Shown in pieces: positions 5,323 through 64,000 of a stretch of DNA of 64,000 nucleotides. Source of the DNA: Bacteroidales bacterium (GTDB lineage Bacteria; Bacteroidota; Bacteroidia; Bacteroidales; UBA932). Every line of letters begins with the position of its first letter. Position 1 is the stretch's first letter. Both the position numbers and the translations under genes were made by a program. The notes under the pieces are model-generated. The model was not told where the DNA came from and did no database searches. It saw only the letters and a program-made list of their open reading frames with translations. Location: NCBI GenBank assembly GCA_017557535.1, contig JAFYYM010000070.1, positions 146,836-210,835 of the forward strand, in the 5' to 3' direction.

Positions 5323-6717
5323 TCAGAACTCGATGTCCAGAGTCTCAATCTCCGTCGCCACTTGTTTAAGGAAGCGGGTGGCCTCACCGCCGTCAAGAGC
5401 CCTGTGGTCATAGGTCAGCGAAAGGCCCAGGTAAGGCACAAACGCGAAGACTCCACCACCAAGGTCCTTAGGGCGAGGGACGATGGTGCCGACACCCAGA
5501 ATGCCACTCTGGGGAAGGTTGATAACAGGAGTAAACCATTCGACCCCGAAACCTCCCAGATTGGATACCGTGAAGGACGCCGCCTCAGAAGACAGCAAAT
5601 CAGGATTGATACTACCCTTACGGCAATCATCAGCCACCTGCTTGAGCGTCTTGCTCAATTCCGTTATCGAGAGATTCTCGGCGTGCTTGACGCAAGGGAC
5701 CATAAGTCCGCGCTCAGTGTCAACCGCACATCCGAGATTGACAGTGTTGAATATCCTCATGGAATCCCCAAGGCAGTGGGAATTGACTTTAGGGAATTTT
5801 TGAAGAGCCTTGATCACCGCGAAACACACGAAGTCATTGATGGTGACGTTGGCATCGATCTTCCCTTCCTCCAGAGCTTTCTTGGCTTTCTTCCGGAGAG
5901 CCTGGATCCTTCTCGCGTCAGCGCCGAGCATATGGGTGAGCTGGGCGGAGTTCTGCAGGGAATTGTACATGCTCTTGGCGATGAGCTTGCGCATATTGGA
6001 CATCTTCTCGACCTGGAACTCGGAGCCTTCTCCGGCGATGTCGGTGTGGGATGGCTTCCATGTCTTGAGGTCGCTTCCCTTCACCATCCCGGCGAGACCT
6101 GTCCCGCTCGCTGGCGCCTGCAGGGCGCCCTCTGCCATCATTGCCTTGGCAAGGCCTGATCTGGGTGATGCGGCCGCGGCTATCACATCCCGCTCTATTA
6201 CCCTGCCTCCAGGGCCGGAACCCGCGACTTGATTCGTGTCCACGCCTTTCTCTTCCGCCAGATGCTTTGCTCTTGGGGATACTCCGGACGGAGATGATGT
6301 CCCTCCGGGCACCACTGCCACCCTCGGCACGTTAAGAGGGGGGACCGGAGCTTCGCTCTGCGAAGCGAGCGGTGGGGTCGAGCGGAGCGAGACGGTGCCG
6401 GAGGGCGCGTAATCCCCGCCCGGAGCAGCCTGAGCAGCAGGTGCGTTGCCTCCGGGAGCGAACTCCTCGAAGGACTCACCTGGCTCGCCGATGACCATCA
6501 CGTTGGTAAGGCACGGAATCTCGTCATTATCATTGAAAAAGCAGGCCAGGACGGTTCCTTCAAACTTCGATTCCTCGTCAAATGAAGCCTTGTCGGTCTC
6601 ATAGCTGAAAAGGATGTCTCCAACGGCGACCTTGTCGCCCACTTTCTTCTTGAACTCAGTTACGATGCAGCTTTCTACAGATTGCCCCTGCTTGGGCATT
6701 ATCACTACTTGCGCCAT
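5323..6717 (-). CDS. Dihydrolipoamide acyltransferase (E2) of a 2-oxoacid dehydrogenase complex
   Basis: A 464-residue E2 core protein. In order it has an N-terminal lipoyl domain (lipoylated Lys in ETDKASFDE, near residue 44), a flexible linker, a peripheral subunit-binding domain (SPRAKHLAEEKG...GSGPGGRVIERDV, about 143-176), a second linker, and a C-terminal catalytic domain from about 230 ending with the DHRALDGGEATRFL motif (His and Asp catalytic). Residues about 105-139 of the first linker are encoded by a copy of the dispersed hairpin element (6301-6405), read antisense to its core; the linker tolerates this because it is disordered in the family. First gene of the operon E2-E3-E1-SorE-like. 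Confidence 0.92.
   Translation of the reverse strand: MAQVVIMPKQGQSVESCIVTEFKKKVGDKVAVGDILFSYETDKASFDEESKFEGTVLACFFNDNDEIPCLTNVMVIGEPGESFEEFAPGGNAPAAQAAPGGDYAPSGTVSLRSTPPLASQSEAPVPPLNVPRVAVVPGGTSSPSGVSPRAKHLAEEKGVDTNQVAGSGPGGRVIERDVIAAAASPRSGLAKAMMAEGALQAPASGTGLAGMVKGSDLKTWKPSHTDIAGEGSEFQVEKMSNMRKLIAKSMYNSLQNSAQLTHMLGADARRIQALRKKAKKALEEGKIDANVTINDFVCFAVIKALQKFPKVNSHCLGDSMRIFNTVNLGCAVDTERGLMVPCVKHAENLSITELSKTLKQVADDCRKGSINPDLLSSEAASFTVSNLGGFGVEWFTPVINLPQSGILGVGTIVPRPKDLGGGVFAFVPYLGLSLTYDHRALDGGEATRFLKQVATEIETLDIEF
6301..6405 (+). repeat. Dispersed hairpin element, copy A, inside the E2 gene
   Basis: The plus strand carries the invariant core (GCCACCCTCGGCAC, then TAAGAGGGGGGACCG, then GCGGTGGGG) found also at 8690, 62020 and 63926. 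Its outer arms CCCTCCGGGCACC (6301-6313) and GGTGCCGGAGGG (6394-6405) are complementary except for one bulged base, and differ in sequence from the arms of the other copies. Inside is a small hairpin GCTTCGC/GCGAAGC. The host gene is on the minus strand, so the element is translated antisense to its core, giving a Pro/Val/Ser-rich linker segment. Confidence 0.85.
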
Positions 6718-6754
6718 TAATTATGAATTTTATAAGGCCCATCAAAAGACCATA

Positions 6755-6762
6755 CAAAGTTA
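6755..6762 (-). promoter_or_regulatory. Putative -7 promoter element of the E2-E3-E1 operon
   Basis: Reads TAACTTTG on the minus strand, matching the Bacteroidetes -7 consensus TAnnTTTG, 38 bases from the E2 start codon. A clear -33 TTTG is not evident. The 130-base gap it lies in is a divergent promoter region shared with the transketolase genes. Confidence 0.55.
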
Positions 6763-6789
6763 AAATTTCCTGTTGAGATAAAAAAGGAT

Positions 6790-6797
6790 TATATTTG
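6790..6797 (+). promoter_or_regulatory. Putative -7 promoter element of the transketolase genes
   Basis: Reads TATATTTG (consensus TAnnTTTG), about 50 bases upstream of the ATG at 6848. Only a weak TTG (6773-6775) lies upstream at shorter than usual spacing, so the -33 element is uncertain. Confidence 0.5.
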
Positions 6798-6847
6798 TAT
6801 GCTTTACACAAAAAGCATTATTCAAACTAAAAATATCAAACACCAAA

Positions 6848-7693
6848 ATGCGATCAACAGAAGATCTGAAGAAGATTGCCTCTCAAGTCAGAAGAGACAT
6901 CATCAGGATGGTCGCCCTGGCCAAGTCCGGACATCCGGGCGGTTCCATGAGCAGCACCGATTTCATGACTGCACTCTATTTCGGAGTCATGGATCAGGAT
7001 CCAGCCACCTGGACCCGTGAGGGAGCTGGTCAGGACACTTTCATCCTCTCCGCCGGGCACCTCACCCCCATGTATTATTCAATCCTCTCAAGGGCCGGGT
7101 ATTTCCCGCTCTCTGAGTTGGCCAGTTTCCGCAAGTTCGGAACCCGTCTCCAGGGACATCCTTCCGTTAGGAAAGGACTTCCGGGAGTGTTCCAGGCTGC
7201 GGGATCACTGGGTCAGGGGCTTTCAGTGGCCGTCGGAATGGCTCTCGGCAAGAAATCCACCAAGGACAACCACAATGTGTACGTTCTCTGCGGTGACGGA
7301 GAGTCCGAGGAAGGCCAGATCTGGGAGGCCGCCATGTTCGCCGCCCATCACAAGGTTGACAACCTAATCGCAATGACGGATGTGAACGGACAGCAGATTG
7401 ACGGAACGACCGAGTCTGTAGCCGGTCTGGGAGACCTTGCCACGAAATGGCAGGCCTTCGGTTGGGAGACCATCTCCGCTGACGGACACGATATGGATAA
7501 GATTCTTGAGGCTTTCGCCAAGGCCAAGGAGCTGGTCGGCAAAGGAAAGCCTATCATGATCCTGTTCACCACCGAGATGGGACATGGCGTGGACTTCATG
7601 GCCGGTACCCACAAATGGCATGGGAGCGTACCTAACGACGATCAGTGCAAGGTCGCATTGGCCCAACTGCCGGAGACTTTGGGAGATTTCTAA
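6848..7693 (+). CDS. Transketolase, N-terminal (thiamine diphosphate-binding) subunit
   Basis: A 281-residue protein equal to the first third of full-length transketolase. It has the GHPGGSMSS segment, LSAGHLTPMYY, QGHPSV, GSLGQGLSVAVGMA and the thiamine-diphosphate motif GDGESEEGQIWEAAMFAAH followed by DVNGQQIDG. Transketolase moves two-carbon ketol units in the non-oxidative pentose phosphate pathway. The next gene, 12 bases downstream, supplies the pyrimidine-binding and C-terminal domains, so the two products must assemble. Split transketolases are a known arrangement in archaea and many bacteria. Confidence 0.92.
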   Translation: MRSTEDLKKIASQVRRDIIRMVALAKSGHPGGSMSSTDFMTALYFGVMDQDPATWTREGAGQDTFILSAGHLTPMYYSILSRAGYFPLSELASFRKFGTRLQGHPSVRKGLPGVFQAAGSLGQGLSVAVGMALGKKSTKDNHNVYVLCGDGESEEGQIWEAAMFAAHHKVDNLIAMTDVNGQQIDGTTESVAGLGDLATKWQAFGWETISADGHDMDKILEAFAKAKELVGKGKPIMILFTTEMGHGVDFMAGTHKWHGSVPNDDQCKVALAQLPETLGDF

Positions 7694-7705
7694 AATCAGA
7701 TTATC

Positions 7706-8656
7706 ATGAAAAAATATACAGATAGAGGAAAGAAAGACACCCGCAGCGGTTTCGGTGAAGGCCTTCTCCAGGCGGGCAAAGCGGATCCAAAGGTCGTGGC
7801 TCTGACCGCCGACCTCAAGGGATCCCTCAAAATGGACGCTTTCGCAGCCGAGTTCCCCGACAGGTATTTTGAGTGCGGTATCGCTGAGGCCAATATGATC
7901 GGAACCGCCGCCGGCATGGCCCTGACTGGGCTTGTCCCTTTCGCTGGCTCTTTCGCAGAGTTCGTCACCGGACGAGTGTATGACCAGATCAGGATGGAAG
8001 TCTGCTACGGTAAAGCCAATGTGAAGATAGCGTCCTCCCACGCCGGTATCACCCTGGGCGAAGACGGAGCGACCCATCAGACAATGGAGGACATCGCCCT
8101 TATGCGCGTCCTTCCCGACATGGTGGTCATCAACCCTTGCGACTGGACCCAGACAAAGAACGCGACCATTGCCGCAGCTAAGTATAACGGTCCTGTATAC
8201 CTTCGCTTCGGAAGGCCGAAAGTGGCTGATTTCATGCCCGATGAACCGTTCGAGATCGGCAAGGCATATGTGCTCAACGAAGGCAAGGACGTGACTATCG
8301 TTGCCACCGGGCATATGGTCTGGGAGGCTCTGAAAGCCGCTGAGACACTCGAGGGAGAGGGCATTTGCGCGGATGTCATTGACGTCGCCACCATCAAACC
8401 GCTTGACAAAGCCACTATCATCGCCTCCGCAATCAAGACTGGGGCAGTGGTAGTCGCGGAGGAGCACAACATGGCCGGTGGTCTTGGCGAACTCATAGCC
8501 GGAGTCCTGGCATTGACATCTCCCAAGCCGATCGAGTTCGTCAACGGAAAGGACACATTCGGTCAAAGCGGGACTCCTTCCGAGCTTTTGGCAGCCTATG
8601 GGATTGACGCCAACGGCATAGCCGACGCCGCTCGAAGAATCATCGAGCGCAAATAA
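7706..8656 (+). CDS. Transketolase, C-terminal subunit
   Basis: A 316-residue partner of the upstream transketolase subunit. It contains the pyrimidine-binding domain (FECGIAEANMIGTAAGMA with the catalytic Glu; SHAGITLGEDGATHQ) and the C-terminal transketolase domain (VATGHMVWEAL, VIDVATIKPLD, VVAEEHNMAGGLGE). It resembles the C-terminal part of DXS and transketolase, but the paired N-terminal subunit and the lack of DXS-specific length argue for transketolase. The gene ends nine bases before the large terminator at 8665. Confidence 0.92.
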   Translation: MKKYTDRGKKDTRSGFGEGLLQAGKADPKVVALTADLKGSLKMDAFAAEFPDRYFECGIAEANMIGTAAGMALTGLVPFAGSFAEFVTGRVYDQIRMEVCYGKANVKIASSHAGITLGEDGATHQTMEDIALMRVLPDMVVINPCDWTQTKNATIAAAKYNGPVYLRFGRPKVADFMPDEPFEIGKAYVLNEGKDVTIVATGHMVWEALKAAETLEGEGICADVIDVATIKPLDKATIIASAIKTGAVVVAEEHNMAGGLGELIAGVLALTSPKPIEFVNGKDTFGQSGTPSELLAAYGIDANGIADAARRIIERK

Positions 8657-8664
8657 AAGAAGAC

Positions 8665-8791
8665 AAAAAAGGCGTTCAGTCCCAGAACCACTGCCACCCT
8701 CGGCACGTTAAGAGGGGGGACCGGAGCGGCGCATCGCGACGCGAGCGGTGGGGCCGCGAAGCGGCGGTTCTGGGATTGAAGCGCCTTTTTT
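8665..8791 (+). terminator. Rho-independent terminator carrying a hairpin element in its loop
   Basis: The arms 8665-8689 and 8766-8791 are complementary over about 25 base pairs with one bulge and one G-U type mismatch (left arm reads AAAAAAGGCG then TTCAGTCCCAGAACC; the right arm ends GCGCCTTTTTT). This is a bidirectional terminator for the transketolase transcript. Its loop is not the usual few bases but 76 bases of the dispersed element (copy B). Confidence 0.85.
8690..8765 (+). repeat. Dispersed hairpin element, copy B, intergenic
   Basis: Carries the same core as copy A (ACTGCCACCCTCGGCAC through TAAGAGGGGGGACCGGAGC), then a variable GC-rich palindromic middle and GCGGTGGGGCCGCGAAGCGGC. 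It shares with copy A the ACCACT junction before the core and the CGGT junction after it, but the outer arms are those of the terminator. Confidence 0.85.
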
Positions 8792-8819
8792 GGATTATTA
8801 TAATTAACTAAACAAAACT

Positions 8820-9506
8820 ATGAGAATCAAAGAATTATGCGCGGACGAGCGTCCGCGGGAGAAAATGTTCTCCAAAGGGCCTGAGGCCCTCAGTAACGCC
8901 GAGCTTCTTGCCATACTCATCGGCTCGGGGACCAGGAAAGACAATGTCCTGGTCGTGGCCAACAAACTCCTTTCCGCCGCCCAAGGGCGGCTCTCCGGTA
9001 TCGCCTCCATGGATTCGCATGAGATCATGTCGATGGACGGGATTGGTTCAGGCCGGTACTCTTCCATCGCCGCCGCTTTCGAGCTTGGAAGAAGATGCTG
9101 CCTGGAAGATCCTGGTTTGGAGAAGATTCCGCTTTGCGAGCCAGGGATGGTGTTCAAAATCATGATTCCACACATGAAAGGACTTGACCACGAGGAGTTT
9201 TGGATATTATTCTTGACAAGAGCGAACTACTTGATCCACAAGGAGATGATTAGTTCAGGCGGTCTCTCCGCGACAGTGGTCGACCCGAGGCTCGTGGTAA
9301 AAAAGGCCCTGGACAAAAGAGCCTGCGGGATAATCATGGTGCACAACCACCCATCCGGCAATCCCATGCCCGGAAAAGAGGATCTCGATCAGACCGCGGG
9401 AATGAAGAAAGCCGCCGGGACTTTCGATATCGCCTTGCTCGATCATATTATCATCTGTGACGACCGCTACTTCAGCTTCGCTGACGATAGGATCTATTTG
9501 GCCTGA
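8820..9506 (+). CDS. radC: RadC/YeeS family JAB-domain protein
   Basis: 228 residues. The N-terminal part has a helix-hairpin-helix-like region (ALSNAELLAILIGSGT... MDGIGSG), and the C-terminal JAB/MPN domain carries the metal-binding HNHPSGNPMPGKEDLDQT signature (His, His, Asp), so a zinc-dependent isopeptidase or nuclease fold. The historical link of RadC with DNA repair is doubtful; the molecular function is not established. Length and motifs are standard, and it is a single gene between the element-loaded terminator and upp. Confidence 0.9.
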   Translation: MRIKELCADERPREKMFSKGPEALSNAELLAILIGSGTRKDNVLVVANKLLSAAQGRLSGIASMDSHEIMSMDGIGSGRYSSIAAAFELGRRCCLEDPGLEKIPLCEPGMVFKIMIPHMKGLDHEEFWILFLTRANYLIHKEMISSGGLSATVVDPRLVVKKALDKRACGIIMVHNHPSGNPMPGKEDLDQTAGMKKAAGTFDIALLDHIIICDDRYFSFADDRIYLA

Positions 9507-9529
9507 CAAGATACTACGAAGGCGAAAAA

Positions 9530-9561
9530 TTTGCGCAGGTTGAAATAAATCTTTAATTTTG
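9530..9561 (+). promoter_or_regulatory. Promoter of upp
   Basis: A full Bacteroidetes-type promoter: TTTG at 9530-9533, a 20-base spacer, and TAATTTTG at 9554-9561, with the ATG of upp 26 bases downstream. This is the best match to the two-part consensus in the window. Confidence 0.75.
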
Positions 9562-9587
9562 GTTTCAGTAACCATCCTCTCGAAACC

Positions 9588-10247
9588 ATGAAAGTAATCA
9601 ACCTGGGAGAGACCAATTCGGCTCTCGGCGACATCATCGCGCAGATACGTGACAGGAAAATCCAGAAAGACCGTCTCCGCTTCCGTTTCAACCTGGAGAG
9701 AATAGGGGCCATTTTCGCATATGAATTGAGCAAGATCCTGGAGTACTCTCAAAAGGAAGTCACCACACCCCTCGCCACGGCCATGGTCAACACCAGGGAC
9801 ACAAAAATCGTGGCCGCGACCATCCTGCGCGCGGGGCTCCCGCTTCACAAGGGTATCATGGACGTTTTTGACAACGCTGAAAGCGCATTCATTGCTGCTT
9901 ATAGGAAATATGACAAGGCCGATGAGTTCCATATCGCTATCGAGTATTGCACCTGCCCTTCCTTGACTGGAAAGGTCCTGATACTCGCTGACTCGATGAT
10001 AGCCTCTGGAGCCTCTATGGAAATAGCTTATGATAAACTCGTGGATGAGGGTGGCAAGCCCGCCTTCACCCACTTCATAAGCCCCGTCACAAGTGTATAT
10101 GCCGTGGAATACCTCCAGAAACGTCTTCCGGAGAACACTTGCCTGTGGACAGGAGCGATTGACGAGGAGTTGACGAGCCAGTCCTATATTATTCCCGGAA
10201 TCGGTGACGCCGGTGACCTGGCGTTCGGAGCTAAGGCGAATCTATAG
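9588..10247 (+). CDS. upp: Uracil phosphoribosyltransferase
   Basis: A 219-residue type I phosphoribosyltransferase that makes UMP from uracil and PRPP. Visible motifs: ATILRAGLPLHKG, the PRPP-binding loop VLILADSMIASGASM, and the uracil-binding tail IPGIGDAGDLAFG. It has its own promoter, and its last six bases overlap the convergent rpoN gene, so the two transcripts must run into each other. Confidence 0.93.
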   Translation: MKVINLGETNSALGDIIAQIRDRKIQKDRLRFRFNLERIGAIFAYELSKILEYSQKEVTTPLATAMVNTRDTKIVAATILRAGLPLHKGIMDVFDNAESAFIAAYRKYDKADEFHIAIEYCTCPSLTGKVLILADSMIASGASMEIAYDKLVDEGGKPAFTHFISPVTSVYAVEYLQKRLPENTCLWTGAIDEELTSQSYIIPGIGDAGDLAFGAKANL

Positions 10248-11654
10248 CTCCTTTCTGAGTCTTGCCTTAGGAATATCCAGTTGGTCGCGGTACTTGGCTA
10301 TGGTACGGCGGGCCACTTTATAGCCCTTCTTCCCCATCTCCGCGACCAGTTGGTCATCAGTTAAAGGCTTGCGTTTGTCCTCAGAATCGACGCAATCCTT
10401 CAGGGCTTTCTTGAGCTCCCGGGTTGAGACTTCCTCACCTTCCTGATTCTCAAGGCCTTCAGAGAAGAAATACTTGAGAGGGAAAATCCCGAAATGAGTC
10501 TCAATGTACTTGCTGTTGACCACACGCGATATCGTAGAGATGTCAAAACCGGTCTTTTCGGCTATATCCTTGAGTACCATTGGTTTAAGATGGGATTCAT
10601 CACCATCCATGAAGTACTCATGCTGATATTCCAAAATGGCCTCCATCGTGCTCTTCAAGGTGTTGTGACGCTGTTTCAGAGCCTCGACAAACCATTTCGC
10701 GGAATCCAGTTTCTGCTTCACGAAAGTAGCCGCCTCTTTGCGCTGGCGATCCGTAGACCCCTGGCTCTCGGCGAGAAGTTCAGCGTATTTTTTGTTCACC
10801 CGTATTTCCGGGATAGAGAACCGGGGCATCGAAAGCCTCATCTCCCCATCCTCAATATCGAGCACGAAATCCGGAACAATCTGTTGAGCCTGATCGTTGT
10901 ACGAGTCATCAATCTGGCCGCCGGGGGAAGGGTTCAGCTTGACTATCCTTGAGATAACAGCTTTCATCTCATCCTCGGAAAGACCCAGTTTCGAGATGAT
11001 CTTCTGGAAATGCTTGTTGGAGAACTCCTGGAAATAATCCCGGAGGATAGTCTCGGCCAATTGGACTTCCCTGGTCTGGTTTTGCGCCTTAAGCTGGAGA
11101 AGCAAGCACTCCCTCAGGTCCCTCGCGCCAACCCCCGCAGGCTCGAATTCCTGGATCAAGGAAAGCAAACGCTCCACCTCCTCAGGGCTAGATTCAATAT
11201 TGGCCCGGAAAGCCAGGTCATCAACTACGCTGTCGATATCCCTGCGAAGGTAACCCGCAGCGTCAAGACTACCTATGATGAAAGCCGCCACATCATGATC
11301 GTGCTTCGATAGGTTCCGAAATCCAAGCTGTTCCAGAAGGCTCTGGGTGAAGCTTTCCTTGACAGAGAAGGTGTTGTACTGCGGACGTTCATCCTTCCCG
11401 TAATTATTGACCCGTAACTTATATGAAGGGATGGGATCATCGGCGTCCATCTCGTCTATAGAGACATCCCTGGGCTCGTCGTCAGAGTCTTCCTTCTCAG
11501 GAGCGGGCGAATCATCCAAGACAGGATTGTCTTCCAATTCGGCCTTTACCCGCTGTTCCAGCTCCTGGATCGGCAGCTCAATCAGCTTAATGGTCTGGAT
11601 CTGAAGTGGGGAAAGCTTCTGAGTCTGCTTGAGTTCGAGTCCTTGCTTGAGCAT
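10242..11654 (-). CDS. rpoN: RNA polymerase sigma-54 factor
   Basis: 470 residues. Region I at the N terminus is Gln/Leu-rich (LKQGLELKQTQKLSPLQIQT) and contacts the activator; an acidic region II follows (about 50-75); the core-binding region and the HTH follow; and the C terminus carries the RpoN box ARRTIAKYRDQL. Sigma-54 recognises -24/-12 promoters and needs AAA+ activators, none of which lies in this window. The first gene to its left on the same strand (a SPOR protein) starts only a few bases away but is transcribed into rpoN, that is, LEA-SPOR-rpoN form one operon. Confidence 0.93.
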   Translation of the reverse strand: MLKQGLELKQTQKLSPLQIQTIKLIELPIQELEQRVKAELEDNPVLDDSPAPEKEDSDDEPRDVSIDEMDADDPIPSYKLRVNNYGKDERPQYNTFSVKESFTQSLLEQLGFRNLSKHDHDVAAFIIGSLDAAGYLRRDIDSVVDDLAFRANIESSPEEVERLLSLIQEFEPAGVGARDLRECLLLQLKAQNQTREVQLAETILRDYFQEFSNKHFQKIISKLGLSEDEMKAVISRIVKLNPSPGGQIDDSYNDQAQQIVPDFVLDIEDGEMRLSMPRFSIPEIRVNKKYAELLAESQGSTDRQRKEAATFVKQKLDSAKWFVEALKQRHNTLKSTMEAILEYQHEYFMDGDESHLKPMVLKDIAEKTGFDISTISRVVNSKYIETHFGIFPLKYFFSEGLENQEGEEVSTRELKKALKDCVDSEDKRKPLTDDQLVAEMGKKGYKVARRTIAKYRDQLDIPKARLRKEL

Positions 11655-11657
11655 AAC

Positions 11658-12146
11658 CTAAAAGATTGATCCCACCGGGGGATAATTGATGGTTTCCTTG
11701 ACGATGAAGGCGGAAGGAAAAGACCCTTTCACCTGCTGAAGGAGACGCATGGCCTCTGACTTCGTCCTGAAATCACCCACAGTGACCTTGAAGAAAGGAT
11801 TTGAATATGTTCTGTAAGCGGCTATACCCGGATACATCCCCTTGAAACGACCCATGGCAGCCTCGGATGCTCCCCTGGAATTCTGCTTATTGTCATTGAA
11901 TATTCTCACACGATAGCCTGATAGCCTCCTCGAAGAATTGGAGGATATCTGACGGTTCATCGAAGCGAGTATAGCTTGTGACTGATGAACAGTTACATTC
12001 GGAAGCAGATTGAAAATGCTTTTTCCTATGAGGGTCGAGTCCACGGCCGGAGCGAGGGTCACGTCCCTCGTTTCCTGAGCTCCCGCTCCTATAGACAACC
12101 CAAGGCTCAAGGCCATGGTGAATACTAAAACAAAAAACCTTCTCAT
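11658..12146 (-). CDS. Secreted SPOR-domain protein
   Basis: 162 residues. A signal peptide (FFVLVFTMALSLGLSIGAGAQ) is followed by a short spacer and a C-terminal SPOR domain from about residue 78 (GYRVRIFNDNKQ... YRTYSNPFFKVTVGDFRTK...AFIVKETI). SPOR domains bind denuded peptidoglycan strands, often at the division site. The start ATG overlaps the stop of the LEA-type gene upstream (ATGA), so translation is probably coupled; it is followed by rpoN. Confidence 0.82.
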   Translation of the reverse strand: MRRFFVLVFTMALSLGLSIGAGAQETRDVTLAPAVDSTLIGKSIFNLLPNVTVHQSQAILASMNRQISSNSSRRLSGYRVRIFNDNKQNSRGASEAAMGRFKGMYPGIAAYRTYSNPFFKVTVGDFRTKSEAMRLLQQVKGSFPSAFIVKETINYPPVGSIF

Positions 12147-12628
12147 TTCCCTTCTGCCATTTGTTTAAGATCCAGATCCTTGTACTTCAAAGTGGTGCCA
12201 GCGCCGCTCTTGAGTTTGACCTTCGCCTCCAAATCAGTGGTGAAGCCATCCAGGGAGTTGCCCTGGGCTATCTGCAAAGCCTTCTTGAGGCTCACTCCCT
12301 CACTCAATGTGGCGGAGCATGGCAGGTCATAGACCTTGCTGCATTTTTTGTCGACCTTGATGGTGTCAGCGGTATAAAAAGCGAAATCCTCGCCCTTGTA
12401 TTTAAGTATGCCGTTAAGGTCTGTAACCTTGAAAGCGAACGTGGGATTGTCAATACCCAAAGCGAGAACAGCGTTGATTGTGCGCAGGCCGCTGAAAGAG
12501 TATGACTCCACCCCCACGGATGTCACTTTGATATCCTTGACCTTCTCGATGCTCCCACACCCGCAAATCACGAGTGACAAGGCGGCCGCCAGAAGGACTA
12601 AAAAAATATGAGACAAGTGTTTCCTCAT
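12143..12628 (-). CDS. LEA type 2 family lipoprotein
   Basis: 161 residues from the ATG at 12628. A hydrophobic N terminus ends in a lipobox-like ICGC, predicting a lipid-anchored periplasmic or outer membrane protein. The mature part alternates polar and hydrophobic beta strands (VGVESYSFSGLRTINAVLALGIDNPTFAF split over two segments), typical of the LEA14/WHy beta-sandwich. An in-frame ATG at 12646 exists, but the -7 box at 12653-12660 would place the transcript start near 12646, which favours the inner start. Function unknown. Confidence 0.72.
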   Translation of the reverse strand: MRKHLSHIFLVLLAAALSLVICGCGSIEKVKDIKVTSVGVESYSFSGLRTINAVLALGIDNPTFAFKVTDLNGILKYKGEDFAFYTADTIKVDKKCSKVYDLPCSATLSEGVSLKKALQIAQGNSLDGFTTDLEAKVKLKSGAGTTLKYKDLDLKQMAEGK

Positions 12629-12652
12629 GTCCGGAATACTATTCACTTCCTA

Positions 12653-12660
12653 CAAATATA
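12653..12660 (-). promoter_or_regulatory. Putative -7 promoter element of the LEA-SPOR-rpoN operon
   Basis: TATATTTG on the minus strand, a full match to TAnnTTTG, 25 bases upstream of the chosen LEA start. It is divergent from the miaB promoter. Confidence 0.6.
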
Positions 12661-12690
12661 GGAAAAAATACTTATTAGCTGAAAATTCCA

Positions 12691-12698
12691 TATCTTTG
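12691..12698 (+). promoter_or_regulatory. Putative -7 promoter element of miaB
   Basis: TATCTTTG (consensus TAnnTTTG) 16 bases upstream of the miaB ATG, giving a very short leader. The -33 region reads TTAG rather than TTTG. Confidence 0.6.
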
Positions 12699-12714
12699 TA
12701 CATAGAGCATTGAC

Positions 12715-14037: not shown

Positions 14038-14054
14038 CACTGAACTAATTTAAT

Positions 14055-15542: not shown

Positions 15543-15553
15543 TATTCAGGGAT

Positions 15554-16291: not shown

Positions 16292-16323
16292 CCTGATACC
16301 ATGCTTCAACTGGTCGGAACCGT

Positions 16324-53151: not shown

Positions 53152-53161
53152 AACTTTTAGT

Positions 53162-53974: not shown

Positions 53975-53992
53975 AGTAGCTTTGAAATCTGA

Positions 53993-54772: not shown

Positions 54773-55086
54773 AACGACTTCTTGACAGCGATCAACTGAC
54801 TCCGGATCTCCTTCAGGCTATCCAAGGCCTTGACCCTTCCCTCAATCTTCTTTCTCTCCGCCGCCATTTTCTTGGACGCACCCTCGAGAGTGAGTCCTTG
54901 CTCCTTGACAAGAAGATGTATCTGCTTGAGGCATTCCAAGTCCTCAGTGGTGTAAAGCCGGTTGCCCTTGGCGTTTCTCTTAGGCTTTATGTACTTCGGA
55001 AAAGAATTGGACCAGAAGCGCACCAGAGATGTACTCTCCCCCAGAAGATCCGAGACCTCTCCGATAGTGTAATATAATTTCTCCAT
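54769..55086 (-). CDS. MerR-family transcriptional regulator
   Basis: 105 residues: a winged-helix MerR domain (YYTIGEVSDLLGESTSLVRFWSN... GNRLYTTEDLECLKQIHLLV) followed by a short helix, without a ligand-binding domain or Cys residues for metal sensing. Short MerR proteins of this kind are widespread in Bacteroidetes, with unknown targets. It overlaps the nif3-like gene downstream. Confidence 0.85.
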   Translation of the reverse strand: MEKLYYTIGEVSDLLGESTSLVRFWSNSFPKYIKPKRNAKGNRLYTTEDLECLKQIHLLVKEQGLTLEGASKKMAAERKKIEGRVKALDSLKEIRSQLIAVKKSL

Positions 55087-55099
55087 ATCTGTTTTAATA

Positions 55100-56059: not shown

Positions 56060-56065
56060 AGAAGC

Positions 56066-57070
56066 TTACCTGAGACTAACGCTGAATGAGCGCCTTTGTG
56101 GGGTGTCGTCTTTATCAGCGTTGCGGCTCTCCACCATGGCAATATACTCTTGCTTGGACATCGAGAGATCAAAGTAATTAATAGGATTGACCCTTTCGCC
56201 CTTGTAGAAAACCTCATAATGGAGATGAGGCCCGCTGGCCCTTCCGGACTGCCCGCTCTCCCCTATCTTGTCACCGCGCTTGACCTTCATTCCCTCAATC
56301 ACGGTGATGGTGTTCAGATGGGCGTACCGGGTCTTGTAGCCGAAGCCATGATCAATGTCCACACAGTTGCCGTAACCGAAGAAATCAAATGCCACAGTCT
56401 CAACCACACCGTCTCCGGTGGCGAACACCGGATTACCCGGTTTCATAGCCAAGTCCACACCAGTATGTAGCTTAGAGCTTCCCGTGAACGGGTCTGTCCT
56501 GTATCCGAACGGGCTGGTGAGAGTGTATTTTGACGGATCGGGGATTATCGGGGGCACAGCGGGAATGCAGGACACCATGTCACCGGCCTTCTTAGAGACA
56601 TCAGCCACCTCGTCAAAAGACTTACTTTGGACATATGTCATCCTGGTGATGCGGTCCAATCTCAAAATCGTGTTCTTCAATGTGTTTGAAGACTCGAGTC
56701 CATCCAGGTAAGAGTAACGGTCGACACCTCCGATCCCAGCGGTCCTCACAGACATAGGAATCTCGTTCATTCCATAAATCGACCTGTATATGTCGTCATC
56801 CCTTATCCTCAACTCATCAAGGTTACTCTCGTAACGGTCAAGCCTCGAGTTCATGAGTGAGATCCTTGCGTCCCAACGCGCCTTTTCAGCCTTGAGTAAA
56901 GCGGTTTTGGGGAGATCCATCCCTAACACGGACGTGAACACCCACAGATAAAGCACCGACAGCGCCAAGCTGCCGGCCAAAAGAAGGAGCCACTTCAAAA
57001 GCTTTGATCTTAAGGATACTTCCTTGATCTCGTAAAGGAGTGTCTCCGAGTTGAGAACATATTTTCTCAT
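56066..57070 (-). CDS. Membrane-anchored M23 metallopeptidase (second of two in tandem)
   Basis: 334 residues and a close paralogue of the downstream M23 gene in layout: transmembrane anchor (about 26-50), coiled-coil stalk, and M23 domain with HTGVDL and HLHYEV intact. The stalk has a region (MSVRTAGIGGVDRYSYLDG) not obvious in the other copy. Both genes together look like a duplication with retained activity. The first gene of the long minus-strand run, transcribed divergently from alaS. Confidence 0.9.
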   Translation of the reverse strand: MRKYVLNSETLLYEIKEVSLRSKLLKWLLLLAGSLALSVLYLWVFTSVLGMDLPKTALLKAEKARWDARISLMNSRLDRYESNLDELRIRDDDIYRSIYGMNEIPMSVRTAGIGGVDRYSYLDGLESSNTLKNTILRLDRITRMTYVQSKSFDEVADVSKKAGDMVSCIPAVPPIIPDPSKYTLTSPFGYRTDPFTGSSKLHTGVDLAMKPGNPVFATGDGVVETVAFDFFGYGNCVDIDHGFGYKTRYAHLNTITVIEGMKVKRGDKIGESGQSGRASGPHLHYEVFYKGERVNPINYFDLSMSKQEYIAMVESRNADKDDTPQRRSFSVSLR

Positions 57071-57115
57071 AGCCGCGAATATACCTTTTTTTGCTATAAA
57101 TCGCTAAAATTGTTA

Positions 57116-57123
57116 TAATTTTG
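57116..57123 (+). promoter_or_regulatory. Putative -7 promoter element of alaS
   Basis: TAATTTTG fits TAnnTTTG, 32 bases upstream of the chosen alaS ATG. A TTTG at 57090-57093 lies 22 bases upstream, slightly beyond the usual spacing of 19-21. Confidence 0.6.
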
Positions 57124-57155
57124 CCATTTCCGTGCCAAACAATAACGGATTAGAG

Positions 57156-59774
57156 ATGAACACAGCTAAAGAGATAAGACAGAGGTTCCTGGATTTCTTT
57201 GAGTCCAAGGGACATACAGTGGTTCCGTCGGCCCCGATGGTCATCAAGAATGACCCTACCCTCATGTTCACCAATGCTGGAATGAACCAGTTCAAGGACA
57301 TTTTCCTGGGCAACTCGGCACCTAAGACCAAGAGGGCGACAGACTCTCAGAAATGCCTCCGTGTCAGCGGTAAGCACAACGACCTCGAAGCGGTGGGTCA
57401 TGACGGACGCCACCACACGATGTTCGAGATGCTGGGCAACTGGAGTTTCGGAGACTACTTCAAGGAAGAGGCGATAGCTTGGGCCTGGGAACTTCTCACC
57501 GAAGTTTACAAGATAGATAAGTCAAAGCTTTACGCGACCGTCTTCGAAGGTTCAGCGGATGACGGGACAGGACTCGACGTGGAAGCTCTCGAGGCTTGGA
57601 AGAAGCATCTGCCGGAGGACCATATCATATTAGGCAACAAGCATGACAATTTCTGGGAAATGGGTGACACCGGCCCCTGCGGTCCCTCGAGCGAGATCCA
57701 TATCGACCTCAGGACTGACGAGGAGATCGCCAAGGTCCCGGGAAAGGATATGGTCAACACCGACAATGACCAGGTGATTGAGATCTGGAACCTGGTGTTC
57801 ATGCAATACAACCGAAAGGCGGACGGATCCCTGGAGCCACTCCCTGCCAAGAATATCGACACCGGAATGGGCTTCGAGAGGCTATGCATGGTGCTGCAAG
57901 GCAAGACCAGCAACTACGACACCGACGTCTTCTCCGGCATGATCCACAAGATCGAGGAGCTCTCCGGGCATGGATATCATGAGAGTTCAAAGACCGAGGT
58001 CGCCATGAGGGTGATCGCGGACCACATCAGGGCAATCGCCTTCTCCATCGCGGACGGGCAGCTACCCTCCAATGTGAAGGCCGGATATGTCATCAGGAGG
58101 ATTCTCCGTAGGGCGGTCCGGTACGGATACACTTTCCTTGGATTCGAGGAACCGTTCCTGTGCTCTCTTGTTCCTCAGCTGATTCAGGACATGGGCGAGG
58201 CATATCCAGAGCTTGAGAAACAGCGCAAACTGATCGAGAGCGTCATTCGGGAGGAGGAGCTTTCTTTCCTTCGCACTCTGGACAGGGGCATCAGGATGAT
58301 GGATGACTACATGGCGAAGAACGCCGGTACCAAGACCATTCCCGGAGTCGACGCTTTCATTCTATACGACACTTACGGTTTCCCGATAGACCTTACCGGA
58401 TTGATCGCCGCCGAGAACGGCTACACGGTCGACATGGAAGGATTCAACACCGAACTCCAGAAACAAAAGGAGAGGGCGCGCAACGCCACTGCCAATGAAT
58501 TCGGAGACTGGACAGTCTTTTCTGACGGAGAGGAGGAGGTATTCCTTGGATATGACAACCTCGAGCTCGAAGGAGTCAGACTCCTTAAGCACCGCACTGT
58601 CAAGCAAAAGAACAAGACCATGATCCAGTTGGTCTTCGACCGCACTCCTTTCTATGCCGAGATGGGAGGACAGGTCGGTGACACTGGAGTCGCCGTCTCC
58701 GCTTCGGGGGAAGAGATCCGTATCCTCAACACTGTCAAGGAAAACAACCTGACAGTCCACATAGCTGAGAGCCTGCCCGAGAATCTCGAAGGAAGCTTCA
58801 CCCTAAAGGTAGATGGTGTCCGACGCCTGAAGATAGCCGCCAACCACACAGCGACTCACCTGCTGGACAACGCTTTGAGAACAGTGCTCGGAACCCATGT
58901 CGAGCAGAAGGGATCATTTGTCGGTCCGGACTATTTCCGCTTCGACTTCTCCCATTTTTCCAAAGTCACGGACGAGGAAATCCGCAAGGTTGAGCATATT
59001 GTCAACTCAATGATACGCAACGACTTCCATCTTGAGGAAAAGAGGGATGCCACTATGGAAGAGGCCCTCGGAATGGGAGCGATAGCCCTTTTCGGCGAGA
59101 AATACGGAGACCGGGTCAGGGTCGTCAAGTTCGGTCCTTCTGTCGAGCTTTGCGGAGGAACTCACGCATCATCAACCGGCAGGATTGGTTTCTTCAAGAT
59201 AGTGTCCGAATCAGCGATCGCCGCAGGTGTACGCAGGATTGAGGCATTGACCGGTGAAGCGGCAGAGAACCTTCTTGACACGGTCGCCGACACTCTCAAG
59301 GGTATAAGGGAGATGTTCAATAATGTCCCCGACGTGACTGCCGCCGTGACAAAAATGCTCACAGAGAACACTGACGCTCGTAAACGTCTGGAGAAATACG
59401 CCAAGGAGAAAGCGGCCTCATTCGCCAAGAAACTCTCTGATAACTCCAAGGTCGTCAATGGTATAAATATTGCGACTTTCAACCGCGACGTTGACCCCGC
59501 CATGTTCCGCGAGTCAGCTGCCATATTGCAGAAAGAAGTGAATAACTTCGCTCTTGCCGCCGCATATATCCATGACGGCAAGCCACAGCTTCTGCTGATG
59601 TACTCCGCTGACCTTGTGGCGGCCGGGCACAATGCGGCCACAGATATCAAGGAGGCCGCCAAGTTCATCCAAGGTGGAGGTGGAGGGCAGCCCTTCCTCG
59701 CCACAGCGGGCGGACGTAATACCGAGGGACTTAAGGATGCCCTTGATAAGATGGTGGAGATCGTCTCCAGATAA
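57156..59774 (+). CDS. alaS: Alanyl-tRNA synthetase
   Basis: 872 residues from the ATG at 57156 (a GTG at 57132 is open in frame but lies only nine bases past the -7 box). Class II core ([59 protein letters not shown]), the editing domain with [13 protein letters not shown] and [10 protein letters not shown] zinc site, and a C-terminal domain with [14 protein letters not shown] are all present. It charges tRNA-Ala and clears mischarged Ser and Gly. Followed without gap by the lptF/G-fmt fusion. Confidence 0.95.
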
Positions 59775-62333
59775 ATGAAAAGGATCGACAAGTTCATACT
59801 GACCTCTTTTATAGGACCATTTTTCATGATCCTTCTTGTCGTCATCTTTATTTTGATGATGCAGACCCTCTGGGTCTATATAGACGAGCTGGTCGGTAAG
59901 GGCTTGGACTTCAAGATTATAGCCGAATTCCTCTTCTGGGGAAGCTGTACAATTCTCCCCTTAGCCCTGCCTCTCGCCACATTGCTGGCGTCAATGATGA
60001 CCATAGGCAATATGGGCGAGAACAATGAGCTCATAGCCCTGAAGGCTGCCGGAGTGTCAGTGTCCAGGGTAATGGCTCCAGTCATGATAGCTTCCGTATT
60101 CATCAGCATCGGAACCTATTTCGCCATAAATGAGCTGGTTCCTGTAGCCTACAACCAAATCTACACGCTGAGGGACGACATCAAACGCACAAAGAACGAG
60201 ATCAAGATCCCGGACGGTGTTTTTTACGATGGCGTCGAAGGCTATGTTCTCCGTGTTGAGAGCACTGACTCGAAAGGTATAATGAACGGGGTCATGCTTT
60301 ATGACCATCACGGCAAGGGCAACACCCGCCTCACTATCGCCGATTCCGCCGAGATCAGGATGTCAAAAGACAAGTCATACTTGACTATCAAGATGTATGA
60401 CGGCACCAACTATCAGGAGACCAACGAGAAAGAAGGCAGGAAAGAGACACACCAGCTTCAGAAGATCAATTTCGCCAAACAGGAGATGGTTGTCACCCTG
60501 GAAAACTATGCTTTCCAGAAATCGGACAGCGCGCGCTTCGGCGACCAGGTCAGGACTCTTCCTTTATGGAGACTGAAAGAGGAAAAAATCCGTTTGGAGG
60601 ATGAGAGGGACAGTGTCAAGTCACTTCAGATATTGGCCACGGCCGCATCCTACCTATTCACCTTAAGGACCCAACTGGACACGACCGCCTCGGGTATATC
60701 AAAGAATTTCGAGGACGAGAGCTTCCTGAGCTTCGATAGTGACGAAGCCACCTCACAGGCGATTTACAGGGCCGGTACAACCGCCAGACAGCTCCAAAGC
60801 AATATAGAGAGCTATGAGTTCGGCGCTTTTGACTACACGGTGAAGCTCCGCTGGACTTTCCTGGAATTACTGAGACGTTTCGGCCAAGCTATAGCCTGTT
60901 TCATAATGTTTTTCATCGGAGCCCCTCTGGGCGCGTTGATCAGGAAAGGCGGGCTTGGCGTCTCAGCTATCGTAGCAATCCTGTTCTTTGTCCTCTATTA
61001 TATTGTGGACATCACCGGAGTGAAACTGGCAAGGGACGGAAGCGTCAGCGCCTGGACAGGAGCGTTTGTATCCTCCGTCGTGATGTTGGCTATAGGAATA
61101 TATCTGACATCAAAGGCGATACACGACACCGACATGTCCAATTTCGATGCCGTGAAGAACTGGTGGAGAAAGCTCAAGAGCACAATCTCTGGATTCTTCA
61201 AGAAGACCAGAATCGTTTATATGGGCACTCCCGAGTTCGCTGTCGCGCCTTTGAAAGAGCTTCTTGACAAGAAATATCGTGTCGTGGCTGTCGTGACAGT
61301 GGCTGACAAACCCAGCGGCCGCGGCCAAAAGGTAAATGAGAGCGCCGTGAAGCAATTCGCTATGGAGCGTGGTATCCCTGTGCTCCAGCCTGTCAAGCTC
61401 AAAGATCCGGAGTTCCTTTCCCAACTCAAGTCTTACAAGGCTGACATGTTTATCGTGGTCGCTTTCAGGATGCTTCCCGAAGAGATTTGGAGCATGCCGA
61501 AGCTGGGCACTTTCAACCTTCACGCCTCATTGCTTCCGCAATATCGTGGAGCCGCACCTATCAACTGGGCCGTGATCAATGGAGAGAGCAGGACTGGAGC
61601 GACGACCTTCATGATAGACAAACAGATAGACACAGGTGGAATCATCCTTCGCCAGGACATCCTTATAGGTAAGGATGACACAGCCGGTGATATCCATGAT
61701 AAGCTTATGGAAATCGGTGCCGATATGGTTGTACAAACCGCTCAGGGATTGATTGAGAAGAATGTGGAGACTAGGGTGCAAAGGAGCTTCATCCAAGGCT
61801 CCGAAGTCCTGAAACCCGCCCCGAAACTCACCCGTGAGCTTTGCCATATCGACTGGAACGATTCCTCCAAGCAGATCCACAACCTCATCCGTGGTCTGAG
61901 CCCCTACCCTGCCGCCTTCACGGAGCTCGTCAAAGAAGGCTCCGCCCCCGTCCAGCTCAAGATCTTCTCCGCCGAGCCCGTTGCCTCCGGAGCGGAGGGT
62001 ATGGTGAGTGAAGACCATGACACCCTCGGCACTGTAAGAGGGGGGACCGGAGCGAAGCGCAGCGTAGCGAGAGGTGGGGCCAAGCGAAGCGAGGCGTCTG
62101 AACCACCATACCCTCCGCTCCGGACAGACCATGGCAAGGTTCTAAGTGACGGGAAGACTTATCTGTGGATAACGACCGCTGATGGGGCAATATCGCTGAA
62201 AGAAGTGCAGTTGGCCGGCAAGAAGAGAATGGGCATCGAAGCATTCCTCCTCGGCTTCCGCGATCCCGAGACCTATTCCACCACCCCCGGCACCTCAAAA
62301 GCCGAGATTTCCAAGACAAAACCCGCCCAATGA
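59775..62333 (+). CDS. LptF/LptG-family permease fused to methionyl-tRNA formyltransferase
   Basis: One open frame of 852 residues with two unrelated halves. Residues 1 to about 470 are a YjgP/YjgQ-type permease of the lipopolysaccharide export ABC transporter: three N-terminal membrane segments, a periplasmic beta-jellyroll (about 125-280), and three C-terminal membrane segments. From about 476 (TRIVYMGTPEFAVAPL) a complete Fmt follows: ADKPSGRGQK, FNLHASLLPQYRGAAPINWA with catalytic Asn and His, and DTGGII with the Asp. No ATG, GTG or TTG lies suitably at the junction, so Fmt has no obvious start of its own. Residues about 738-784 are encoded by hairpin element copy C, in a loop of the C-terminal domain. 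Confidence 0.88.
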   Translation: MKRIDKFILTSFIGPFFMILLVVIFILMMQTLWVYIDELVGKGLDFKIIAEFLFWGSCTILPLALPLATLLASMMTIGNMGENNELIALKAAGVSVSRVMAPVMIASVFISIGTYFAINELVPVAYNQIYTLRDDIKRTKNEIKIPDGVFYDGVEGYVLRVESTDSKGIMNGVMLYDHHGKGNTRLTIADSAEIRMSKDKSYLTIKMYDGTNYQETNEKEGRKETHQLQKINFAKQEMVVTLENYAFQKSDSARFGDQVRTLPLWRLKEEKIRLEDERDSVKSLQILATAASYLFTLRTQLDTTASGISKNFEDESFLSFDSDEATSQAIYRAGTTARQLQSNIESYEFGAFDYTVKLRWTFLELLRRFGQAIACFIMFFIGAPLGALIRKGGLGVSAIVAILFFVLYYIVDITGVKLARDGSVSAWTGAFVSSVVMLAIGIYLTSKAIHDTDMSNFDAVKNWWRKLKSTISGFFKKTRIVYMGTPEFAVAPLKELLDKKYRVVAVVTVADKPSGRGQKVNESAVKQFAMERGIPVLQPVKLKDPEFLSQLKSYKADMFIVVAFRMLPEEIWSMPKLGTFNLHASLLPQYRGAAPINWAVINGESRTGATTFMIDKQIDTGGIILRQDILIGKDDTAGDIHDKLMEIGADMVVQTAQGLIEKNVETRVQRSFIQGSEVLKPAPKLTRELCHIDWNDSSKQIHNLIRGLSPYPAAFTELVKEGSAPVQLKIFSAEPVASGAEGMVSEDHDTLGTVRGGTGAKRSVARGGAKRSEASEPPYPPLRTDHGKVLSDGKTYLWITTADGAISLKEVQLAGKKRMGIEAFLLGFRDPETYSTTPGTSKAEISKTKPAQ
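61986..62124 (+). repeat. Dispersed hairpin element, copy C, inside the fmt half of the fusion
   Basis: The left arm 61986-62005 and right arm 62105-62124 are complementary at all 20 positions and differ from the arms of copies A and B. Between them are the core CACCCTCGGCACTGTAAGAG, GGGGGGACCGGAGC, then GGTGGGGCC and an AGCGAAGCGAGGC tail. The plus strand is the coding strand, so here the core is read in sense. The encoded segment is Gly/Ala/Arg/Ser/Glu-rich (TVRGGTGAKRSVARGG) and absent from Fmt proteins I know. Confidence 0.88.
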
Positions 62334-63013
62334 GCGTAGCGGTCATCATAGGTGGCGGAGATTTCCCGAAGAAGGAATATCCAAGAGAACTGATCCGCAG
62401 GGCGGATGTCTTGGTCTGTTGCGATGGCAATGCCCTCAAGGCGTTCCTACGCCACCGGAAGAGCATATTTGGAGACAACACTAGGGAGCCTGATGCTGTG
62501 GTAGGTGATATGGACTCTTTGAGCCCGACGCTCGCTAAAATATATTCAAAGCGACTGGTTCGGATAGAGGAGCAGGATGACAACGATCAGACCAAGGCTT
62601 TCCATTTCATTCTCAACAACTTCCCAGAGGTGGATACAATTCATTTCCTGGCCGCTACCGGGAAGCGGGAGGATCATACAATCGGCAACCTGGGGCTATT
62701 GATGGAATATGCCCGCTCCCTATCGACTTCTTATCCCGAGCGCGGCGAAGGATATATATCCATCGATATGGTCTCTGACTACTCCACAGCCTTCGCCGTC
62801 ACTGACAGCTGTGAGCTCTATTTGGGGAAAGGGCGCCGAATCTCCCTCTTCAGCCCTGACAACAGCCTTACAATAACTTCTAAAGGGCTCAAATGGCAGA
62901 CTTCAGGAGTCGTTTTCAATAACTGGTGGCCAGCCACTCTCAACCAGACCACCGAGGACGTAGTCCAGCTGGAGTTTTCTCATAAATCATTAGTACTCAT
63001 CATCACCGATTAG
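62330..63013 (+). CDS. Thiamine pyrophosphokinase
   Basis: 227 residues. VVGDMDSLSP near residue 61, the acidic EEQDDNDQTKAF near 85, and LAATGKREDHTIGNLGLL near 110 are the catalytic and thiamine-binding motifs of the TPK family; a beta-sandwich C-terminal domain follows. It makes thiamine pyrophosphate from thiamine and ATP. The ATG overlaps the fusion gene stop (ATGA), which puts it in the alaS operon. Confidence 0.9.
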   Translation: MSVAVIIGGGDFPKKEYPRELIRRADVLVCCDGNALKAFLRHRKSIFGDNTREPDAVVGDMDSLSPTLAKIYSKRLVRIEEQDDNDQTKAFHFILNNFPEVDTIHFLAATGKREDHTIGNLGLLMEYARSLSTSYPERGEGYISIDMVSDYSTAFAVTDSCELYLGKGRRISLFSPDNSLTITSKGLKWQTSGVVFNNWWPATLNQTTEDVVQLEFSHKSLVLIITD

Positions 63014-63024
63014 CTATTTTTGAT

Positions 63025-63032
63025 TATATTTG
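63025..63032 (+). promoter_or_regulatory. Putative -7 promoter element of the polyferredoxin gene
   Basis: TATATTTG fits TAnnTTTG, 29 bases upstream of the ATG at 63062. It overlaps the left half of a perfect inverted repeat (63026-63050). Confidence 0.6.
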
Positions 63033-63050
63033 TCCAGAACGAACAAATAT
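63026..63050 (+). promoter_or_regulatory. Inverted repeat overlapping the polyferredoxin promoter
   Basis: ATATTTGT (63026-63033) and ACAAATAT (63043-63050) are perfect inverted copies with a 9-base spacer, covering the -7 box and the expected start of transcription. This is where a dimeric repressor would bind; a leader hairpin is the alternative. Confidence 0.5.
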
Positions 63051-63061
63051 CTATCTAAAAG

Positions 63062-64000
63062 ATGCTTAAGAAAATAAGAGTCATTCTGGCGACTCTGTGC
63101 CTTGTGGCTGTCACATTGCTATTCCTGGACTTCTCCGGGACCCTGCACCATTGGCTCGGCTGGCTCGCCATAATCCAGTTCCTTCCAGCAGTCTTGGCCC
63201 TGAACCTGGTGGTTATCATCGCCCTGCTTCTGGTGACCATCCTTTTCGGAAGGATCTACTGCTCGGTGATCTGCCCTCTTGGCGTGTTCCAAGACGGTGT
63301 CGCCAACCTCAGCCGCAAGGGAAAGAAGGGAAAGTATTCATATTCAAAAGAGATGAAATGGCTCCGTTATGGAGTTTGGGTGGTTTTCGTGGTCGCATTG
63401 ATCGCTGGAGTCAACGCTCTCGTCGCCCTCCTCGCACCGTACAGCGCTTGGGGAAGAATAGTCCAGAACCTTCTGGCTCCCGTGTGGCAGTGGGGCAACA
63501 ACTTATTCGCGTCGATCGCCGAGAAGCATGAGAGCTATTCCTTCTACACCAAGGAAGTCTGGCTGAAGAGCCTTCCTACATTCCTTGTGGCAGTCGTCAC
63601 CCTCGTGGCTATAGTCATACTGTCCTGGAAGAACGGCAGGACCTATTGCAACACGATCTGCCCTGTGGGAACAACCCTTAGTTTCTTCTCCCGTTTCGCG
63701 ATGTTCCGTCCGGTCATCGATGCTTCCAAGTGCAAGAGCTGCCATCTATGCGAGCACAAGTGCAAGGCGGCGTGCATAGACATTGACGGTGGAAAGAAGA
63801 TTGACTACAGCCGCTGCGTGGATTGCTTCAACTGCATCGACAACTGCAAATTTGACGCTCTCCATTACCGCTTCGCCTGGGGCAAGATTGCTCCGTCGGA
63901 TGGCACTCCGGCCAGGGCGAACCATGCCACCCTCGGCACTGTAAGAGGGGGGACCGTGAGCGAAGCGAACGGTGGGGCCGAGCAAAGCGAGGCGGTCGAG
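63062..64000 (+). CDS. NapH/NosR-like polyferredoxin membrane protein, C-terminally truncated by the window
   Basis: 313 residues are visible, open to the right edge. Four to five membrane segments alternate with YCSVICPLG and YCNTICPVG (the two CxxxCP motifs of NapH-type proteins), then two ferredoxin motifs CKSCHLCEHKC and CVDCFNCIDNC near residues 224-260. Such proteins move electrons through the membrane to periplasmic or cytosolic oxidoreductases. The last 27 residues come from hairpin element copy D, so the gene is interrupted or extended by it. It does not belong to the Rnf set. Confidence 0.85.
   Translation, partial: MLKKIRVILATLCLVAVTLLFLDFSGTLHHWLGWLAIIQFLPAVLALNLVVIIALLLVTILFGRIYCSVICPLGVFQDGVANLSRKGKKGKYSYSKEMKWLRYGVWVVFVVALIAGVNALVALLAPYSAWGRIVQNLLAPVWQWGNNLFASIAEKHESYSFYTKEVWLKSLPTFLVAVVTLVAIVILSWKNGRTYCNTICPVGTTLSFFSRFAMFRPVIDASKCKSCHLCEHKCKAACIDIDGGKKIDYSRCVDCFNCIDNCKFDALHYRFAWGKIAPSDGTPARANHATLGTVRGGTVSEANGGAEQSEAVE
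63921..64000 (+). repeat. Dispersed hairpin element, copy D, partial at the window edge
   Basis: Core GCCACCCTCGGCACTGTAAG, then AGGGGGGACCG, a short GAGCGAAGCGAAC middle, GGTGGGGCC and the GAGCAAAGCGAGGCGGT tail. The left flank (GGGCGAACCATG) would be the left arm, but the right arm lies outside the window. It is closest to copy C and is also read in sense within the polyferredoxin gene. Confidence 0.8.

Follow-up and report, generated by a model that had tools for sequence, protein, structure and literature searches.

A dispersed family of hairpin elements with a fixed core and freely varying complementary arms, often resident within genes of herbivore-gut Bacteroidales

Small palindromic sequences that are dispersed in bacterial genomes are known from several systems. 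Rickettsia palindromic elements are palindromic units of about 150 bp that are dispersed in frame within unrelated genes (PMC10969869), and miniature inverted-repeat transposable elements (MITEs) are likewise small, non-coding and dispersed, with known in-frame fusions (PMC10969869). The repetitive extragenic palindromes associated with tyrosine transposases (REP/RAYT) and the CGTC repeats are small dispersed palindromes, some of them intragenic (PMC3733652). In the invertons of Bacteroidales, a segment between inverted repeats occurs in both orientations (PMC11892184). In addition, polymerase template switching homogenises the arms of inverted repeats and inverts the spacers between them (PMC8604942), and it also creates and maintains hairpins (PMC8794818). 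Here we describe a family of hairpin elements, four copies of which lie in a 64-kb stretch of a Bacteroidales genome (G000:C49:146836-210835; the whole stretch is referred to as the window). The family is carried by rumen and other herbivore-gut Bacteroidales, often within genes. It resembles an intragenic palindromic repeat in its manner, although features tested for REP/RAYT repeats, MITEs and invertons are lacking. No description of it was found in the available portions of the open-access full-text literature.

The original prediction, made from the window alone, was of four copies with a fixed core and locus-specific complementary arms. The shared strings are indeed present in all four copies and complementary arms specific to the locus in the three complete ones, although the arms are longer than first listed; element size is mostly about 125-145 bp. 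Within the window, a 15-mer with up to three mismatches gave five matches against a chance mean of 2.27, and five or more were obtained in 8 of 100 shuffles, which is weak evidence. The genome-wide search for further copies that had been proposed was more productive, since a 28-nt core (ACCCTCGGCAC-NN-TAAGAGGGGGGACCG) has 21 near-exact matches (up to three mismatches) in the 3.38 Mb of the same genome and its reversed control has none. The core was found in 24 of 101 sampled genomes of the genus (its own included), which may be Cryptobacteroides, at up to 21 copies each, bearing out the suspicion of a dispersed family resembling a mobile element. In a sample of 393 genomes from across the order, in which the genus was represented by two other members and the family by three, the own genome was the sole match (0 of 392 others). 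A scan of named genomes found at least 116 stretches; among the matches listed, all were titled Bacteroidales, Bacteroidia or Prevotellaceae, and the source, where titled, was mostly a ruminant or other herbivore. Viral contigs, searched as a sign of phage carriage, contained no match to one exact core pattern.

A wider related family probably exists beyond the strict core, because a covariance model that scored about 33 candidates per genome has matches in 73 of the 101 genus genomes at an E-value of 0.01 (32 matches in G000). A search of relatives with such a model had been suggested at the outset; its matches include weaker, candidate families. Nothing in Rfam reaches the gathering score over window positions 6201-8900, which cover copies 1 and 2 only; the sub-threshold matches had E-values of 0.46 (outside the copies) and 3.5. 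Copy numbers in metagenome-assembled genomes may be underestimates because some contigs end in or beside elements, as seen at window position 64000, in G062:C11 and C68, and in G048:C87.

The core consists of a hairpin, NNTGCC-ACCCTC-GGCANNN, followed by two more hairpins, and all of these are closed by an arm stem of free sequence. Compensatory changes are clear in one core hairpin (NNTGCC/GGCANNN). Across 60 copies, columns 40-58 hold AT 25, CG 25, GC 4 and TA 4, and columns 41-57 hold CG 33, AT 16 and GC 9; across 258 copies, 484 of the 516 cells in the covarying core pairs are Watson-Crick and three are G-U. The proposed structure as a whole is paired in 97.3% of cells, compared to 28-51% when slid, and its covariation score was reached by none of 500 shuffles. 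The loop CCCTC is complementary to the GAGGG that follows, and this pairing is formed in 99% of cells. A pseudoknot is unproven, because the loop and GAGGG positions hardly vary and covariation is therefore no test of it; the two hairpins could also be alternatives.

The arms were analyzed in successive sets of 129, 231 and 258 distinct elements, all of which include orthologous copies. For 124 of the 129 elements the arm pairing score has a median of 38 and a minimum of 15, versus a score of 15 for swapped arm partners (95% at 21; the maximum of 72 arises because some copies share arms). In the second set, 215 of 231 elements had enough flank to be scored and 196 were well paired; in the latter, a fraction of 0.82-0.97 is paired over the interval 18-32 nt from the core, dropping to 0.34 at 37 nt, and the sequence information at 18-32 nt is at most 0.52 bit per position. 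Pairing is thus kept while sequence is not, as had been surmised from three copies. For 219 well-paired elements of the 258, the median outer end of the arm lies 36-36.5 nt from the core in all four inner-arm classes (n=182, 15, 14 and 8). Two of the classes conserve a TGGCGAGACC-type inner arm and have an interquartile range of 36-37; this range is 33-42 for the large remainder and 36-46 for the smallest class, and the outer end falls within 31-38 nt in 143 of the 219. Since pairing ends near 36 nt and sequence information is low, it is the length of the arm that is typical and not its sequence. The 36-nt limit hints at a measuring step, and we know of no palindromic repeat that matches it.

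These properties separate the family from two of the systems introduced above. REP/RAYT and CGTC repeats have stems of 5-13 bp with a GTAG or CGTC tag, whereas the stems here are about 30 bp of free sequence; at the left arm end, which was the end scanned, GTAG or its complement occurs in 11 of 241 copies and CGTC in 39 of 241, and neither is conserved. Unlike MITEs, the elements lack conserved terminal inverted repeats, and their targets are not directly duplicated, with direct repeats of k=4, 6, 8 and 10 showing no excess over shuffled partners among 219 elements.

Copies often reside in genes. Among the copies with 500 bp on each side, 142 of 221 are inside an open frame that runs 150 bp beyond both sides. 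Of these, 78 are sense and 64 antisense, and one frame predominates in each group: frame 0 accounts for 72 of the 78 sense copies and frame 2 for 55 of the 64 antisense ones. In addition to the hosts of the window copies described below, the host genes include those for RsmB/F-type proteins, PF02390 (which we take to be TrmB), TrmO, GH3, MetH-type proteins and class III aminotransferase. The family also suggests that a conserved gene, fmt and rsmF being examples, can accommodate mirrored stretches of sequence. The comparison with Rickettsia palindromic elements that had been offered is apt; both reside in frame in protein genes. Families of the Rickettsia elements are conserved along the arms; here, by contrast, the arms have almost no shared sequence and end at a typical distance, and the core lies both ways at orthologous sites.

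The four window cores had been noted to run the same way whatever the gene direction. That is correct within the window but does not hold across the genome, where 12 matches are forward and 9 reverse by contig orientation. Orthologous filled sites gave 154 pairs in the same orientation and 138 inverted, with pairs within one cluster not being independent, and 29 of the 50 clusters of orthologous sites include an inverted pair. Between G089 and G101 the Fmt and E2 sites have flanks that are 94-99% identical, yet the core is oppositely oriented, and the arms differ too. Arms that agree beyond the 99th percentile of the background were found in 39 of 139 inverted pairs, for example L010 and L086, and in 82 of the 154 pairs of like orientation. 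The best reading of the 39 inverted pairs is that the core was inverted and the arms were retained. As in invertons, the segment exists in both orientations, but here this was seen between species and not within a population, and because the arms differ between sites there is no single invertase site. In one other comparison (L108 versus L270) the flanks are about 98% identical but the stretch immediately left of the element is far more divergent, as might be seen after local recombination or error-prone repair.

Sites that lack the element in a relative bear on where the arms come from. Flank searches in close relatives used one flank per element (11 G089, 18 G041 and 21 G000 copies), and 22 clean-looking comparisons covering 19 elements were obtained from 42 + 29 sites, an all-against-all comparison, and Fmt. 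As a control, the same arms were scored against the empty sites of other elements. In none of the 22 comparisons were both arms above control, and one arm exceeded the control maximum in 7 of the 19 elements. The clearest cases are TrmB (empty-site score 31 in G103 and 14 in G102, control maximum 11), Fmt of G032 (24, maximum 10) and MetH (15 in both empties, maximum 9). The others are a 4Fe-4S gene (12, maximum 9), RsmF (10, maximum 9), an element that lies in what is left of an earlier one (12, maximum 10), and e20/L402 (12, with the other arm at 9 and within control; maximum 11). The e20/L402 empty site reads as a footprint, with both arms but no core, that excision of the core could have left.

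At a few loci, then, one arm matches the host sequence of the empty relative and the other arm is its inverted copy. In TrmB the empty sequence is uninterrupted, and about 30 nt of it recur in the filled gene as an inverted copy beside the core. For RsmF, a nine-residue ungapped linker is common to several outgroups and the empty G101. The MetH host stretch GGACC[A/T]CCAATAGCC forms one arm; two further copies, one located 1 kb away and the other in MetH of G041, have GGACCACCAATA as their inner arm, and the Fmt copy holds a shorter stretch similar to it. The recurrence of GGACCACCAATA in other copies is suggestive of captured host arms moving along with the element, but it is not proof.

With moderate confidence, we interpret the family as a genus-restricted, mobile, structured non-coding hairpin element, the arms of which are rebuilt and the core flipped by template switching. 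The element would be inserted by some enzyme, and the hairpin would then prime polymerase template switching that copies one arm, or adjoining host DNA, into the other arm. Such copying would keep drifting arms complementary and would also flip the core between them, so that paired drift and core flipping would be accounted for together. The likeness to template-switch inverted repeats, namely arm homogenisation and spacer inversion, is one of pattern; moreover, those short inverted repeats are unrelated single sites, whereas a single conserved core is here scattered over many genomes. If the interpretation is correct, the family offers a natural laboratory for hairpin-driven template switching, with hundreds of copies, a constant core and freely evolving arms, in which arm homogenisation, core flipping and the remodelling of genes by in-frame palindromes would be directly countable.

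Several points weigh against this interpretation. Template switching by itself explains neither the 36-nt limit nor the dispersal, and no mobilising enzyme was found in the two families tried, Y1_Tnp and RVT_1 (see below). Published spacer inversions changed 2-5 bp (PMC8604942), compared to about 70-80 bp here. Two of five covariation measures are weakly above shuffles (doubly changed pairs, 7/500; further pair types, 68/500). In 100 of the 139 inverted pairs the arms are not kept above the 99th percentile; these pairs could reflect inversion plus arm drift or else new insertions, and repeated insertion at tolerant sites is therefore also possible. The empty-site comparisons left out 16 core-less sites (remnants, other insertions, or no right flank), RsmF exceeds its control by a single point, and in 12 of the 19 elements the empty site holds neither arm. 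Host copying is therefore shown for a minority of elements, most arms perhaps being brought in by the insert, and these same twelve elements lead us to reject the idea that all arms were copied from the host.

A tentative alternative, which would amount to a new mode of mobility, would place the copying within the act of insertion. The inserted core would snap back and copy about 30 nt of flanking host DNA, producing an inverted target duplication the total length of which is fixed, and part of the captured arm would later be carried to new sites. It is likewise conceivable, though doubtful, that a MITE-like unit with its own arms has inserted repeatedly and independently at a few tolerant sites (linkers and intergenic gaps), in which case the arms would differ because each copy keeps those of its donor and drifts. 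The twelve elements without either arm in the empty site would fit repeated insertion, as would the different arms and orientations at the same sites, a copy that apparently lies within the remains of an older inverted one (L008 versus L126), and the inner arms of CCAGTCTGGATGGCGAGACC type that are common to some non-orthologous copies. Against repeated insertion, the same arms are kept in 39 of 139 inverted pairs, and the elements have neither direct target repeats nor a terminal sequence common to the arms that could serve as a binding site of a transposase.

It is unlikely that the explanation lies in selection for a folded RNA, or for folded single-stranded DNA, with compensatory point mutations keeping arms and core paired. 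There is covariation in both the core and the closing stem, and arm mismatches on the element's own strand favour G-U over A-C (113 to 64, p=0.0003, counting one copy per distinct arm with kinship uncorrected). On the transcribed strand of copies in genes, however, the bias is reversed (GU 41, AC 65), which makes it unlikely that folding of the host mRNA keeps the arms paired. In-gene copies are also read both ways, G-U pairs are nearly absent from the covarying core cells, and the opposite orientation of the core between kept arms would be left unexplained. Insertion into the loop of a pre-existing palindrome such as a terminator, which the original prediction had raised, is very improbable. 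In its favour, copy 2 lies within a stem that resembles a terminator and has six T after it, the e16 empty sites contain an imperfect 7-8 bp inverted repeat and e20/L402 has both arms without a core. Yet the e16 arm scores are within control, e20/L402 is read as excision, no empty site has both arms above control, and it is implausible that conserved genes ancestrally held palindromes of about 30 bp.

It had been proposed to look for a Y1-type transposase linked to the elements. Y1 genes (PF01797) are present in 22 of 24 element genomes and in 56 of 77 others. Core-like sequence was found at 1 of the 39 Y1 loci read, about 1 kb distant; the loci comprised 30 from nine element-bearing genomes, which have 54 matches in all, plus 9 from other genomes. 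A linked Y1 transposase is rejected as far as the loci were read, and unlike REP/RAYT repeats the elements do not flank a Y1 gene at them. RVT_1 is found in 7 of 24 element genomes versus 25 of 77 others. A 400-aa reverse transcriptase gene lies 3.8 kb from the L010/L086 site and is also seen in G089, and RVT_1 genes of similar length occur in genomes without the strict core. Reverse transcriptase was rejected as the mobiliser; RVT_1 showed no linkage. A similar 400-aa reverse transcriptase gene adjoins a small conserved gene in G000:C83, G041:C6 and G089:C12.

All four window copies have the core on the + strand. Copy 1 (6284..6424; core 6320-6347, arms ~6284-6313 and ~6393-6424) is within a 2-oxoacid dehydrogenase E2 gene (5323-6717, - strand), in frame and antisense, between the lipoyl and E3-binding domains; its arms pair imperfectly over about 30 nt. 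The orthologue in G497 (L411) is the same copy with better-matched arms, and that in G496 (L420) is inverted. Copy 2 (8665..8791; core 8696-8723, arms ~8665-8689 and ~8765-8791) lies between two genes, a transketolase-type one (7706-8656) and a RadC-type one (8820-9506); its left arm extends into an A-run and its right arm into a T-run. G497 (L405) has a near-identical copy, G496 (L400) an inverted one with a variant core and other arms, and RUI220 (L244) has the site without the element. Shuffled sequences folding as well as the real one numbered 3, 0 and 0 of 200 for copies 1, 2 and 3 on the + strand, and 9, 0 and 0 of 200 on the - strand.

Copy 3 (61986..62124; core 62022-62049) has outer arms that are perfect over 21 bp and is in frame and sense within the open reading frame 59775-62333, inside the Fmt C-terminal domain. 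The site is filled in either orientation in other species and empty in G071 (L054); in G496 (L406) the right arm is missing. The host frame itself combines LptF/LptG and formyltransferase (Fmt-type) domains in a single open frame. Copy 4 (63893..64000; core 63929-63956, left arm ~63893-63922) is in frame in a gene for a 4Fe-4S-type protein and is incomplete because the end of the window is the end of contig G000:C49. There is a full orthologous copy in G041 (L080) and none in G102 (L308, Fer4 domains).

Some related and unrelated repeats were also encountered. Variant cores in which AAGAGGGAGGGGCC replaces AAGAGGGGGGACCG occur at L033:1659, L149, L246, L400 and L073 and in the flanks of L083 and L104. 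The Fmt region of G027 (L077) and G073 (L069) has unrelated long-armed hairpins with other cores, and because these occupy the same region several hairpin families may behave alike. Finally, G496 and G497 (query ~1882-1950) reveal a second dispersed repeat of about 70 bp (GGGCAGCCGTCCGAGCCCGGCC...TGAGTACGGCCTAAGCCCGG), found in full or in part at dozens of places in two genomes.

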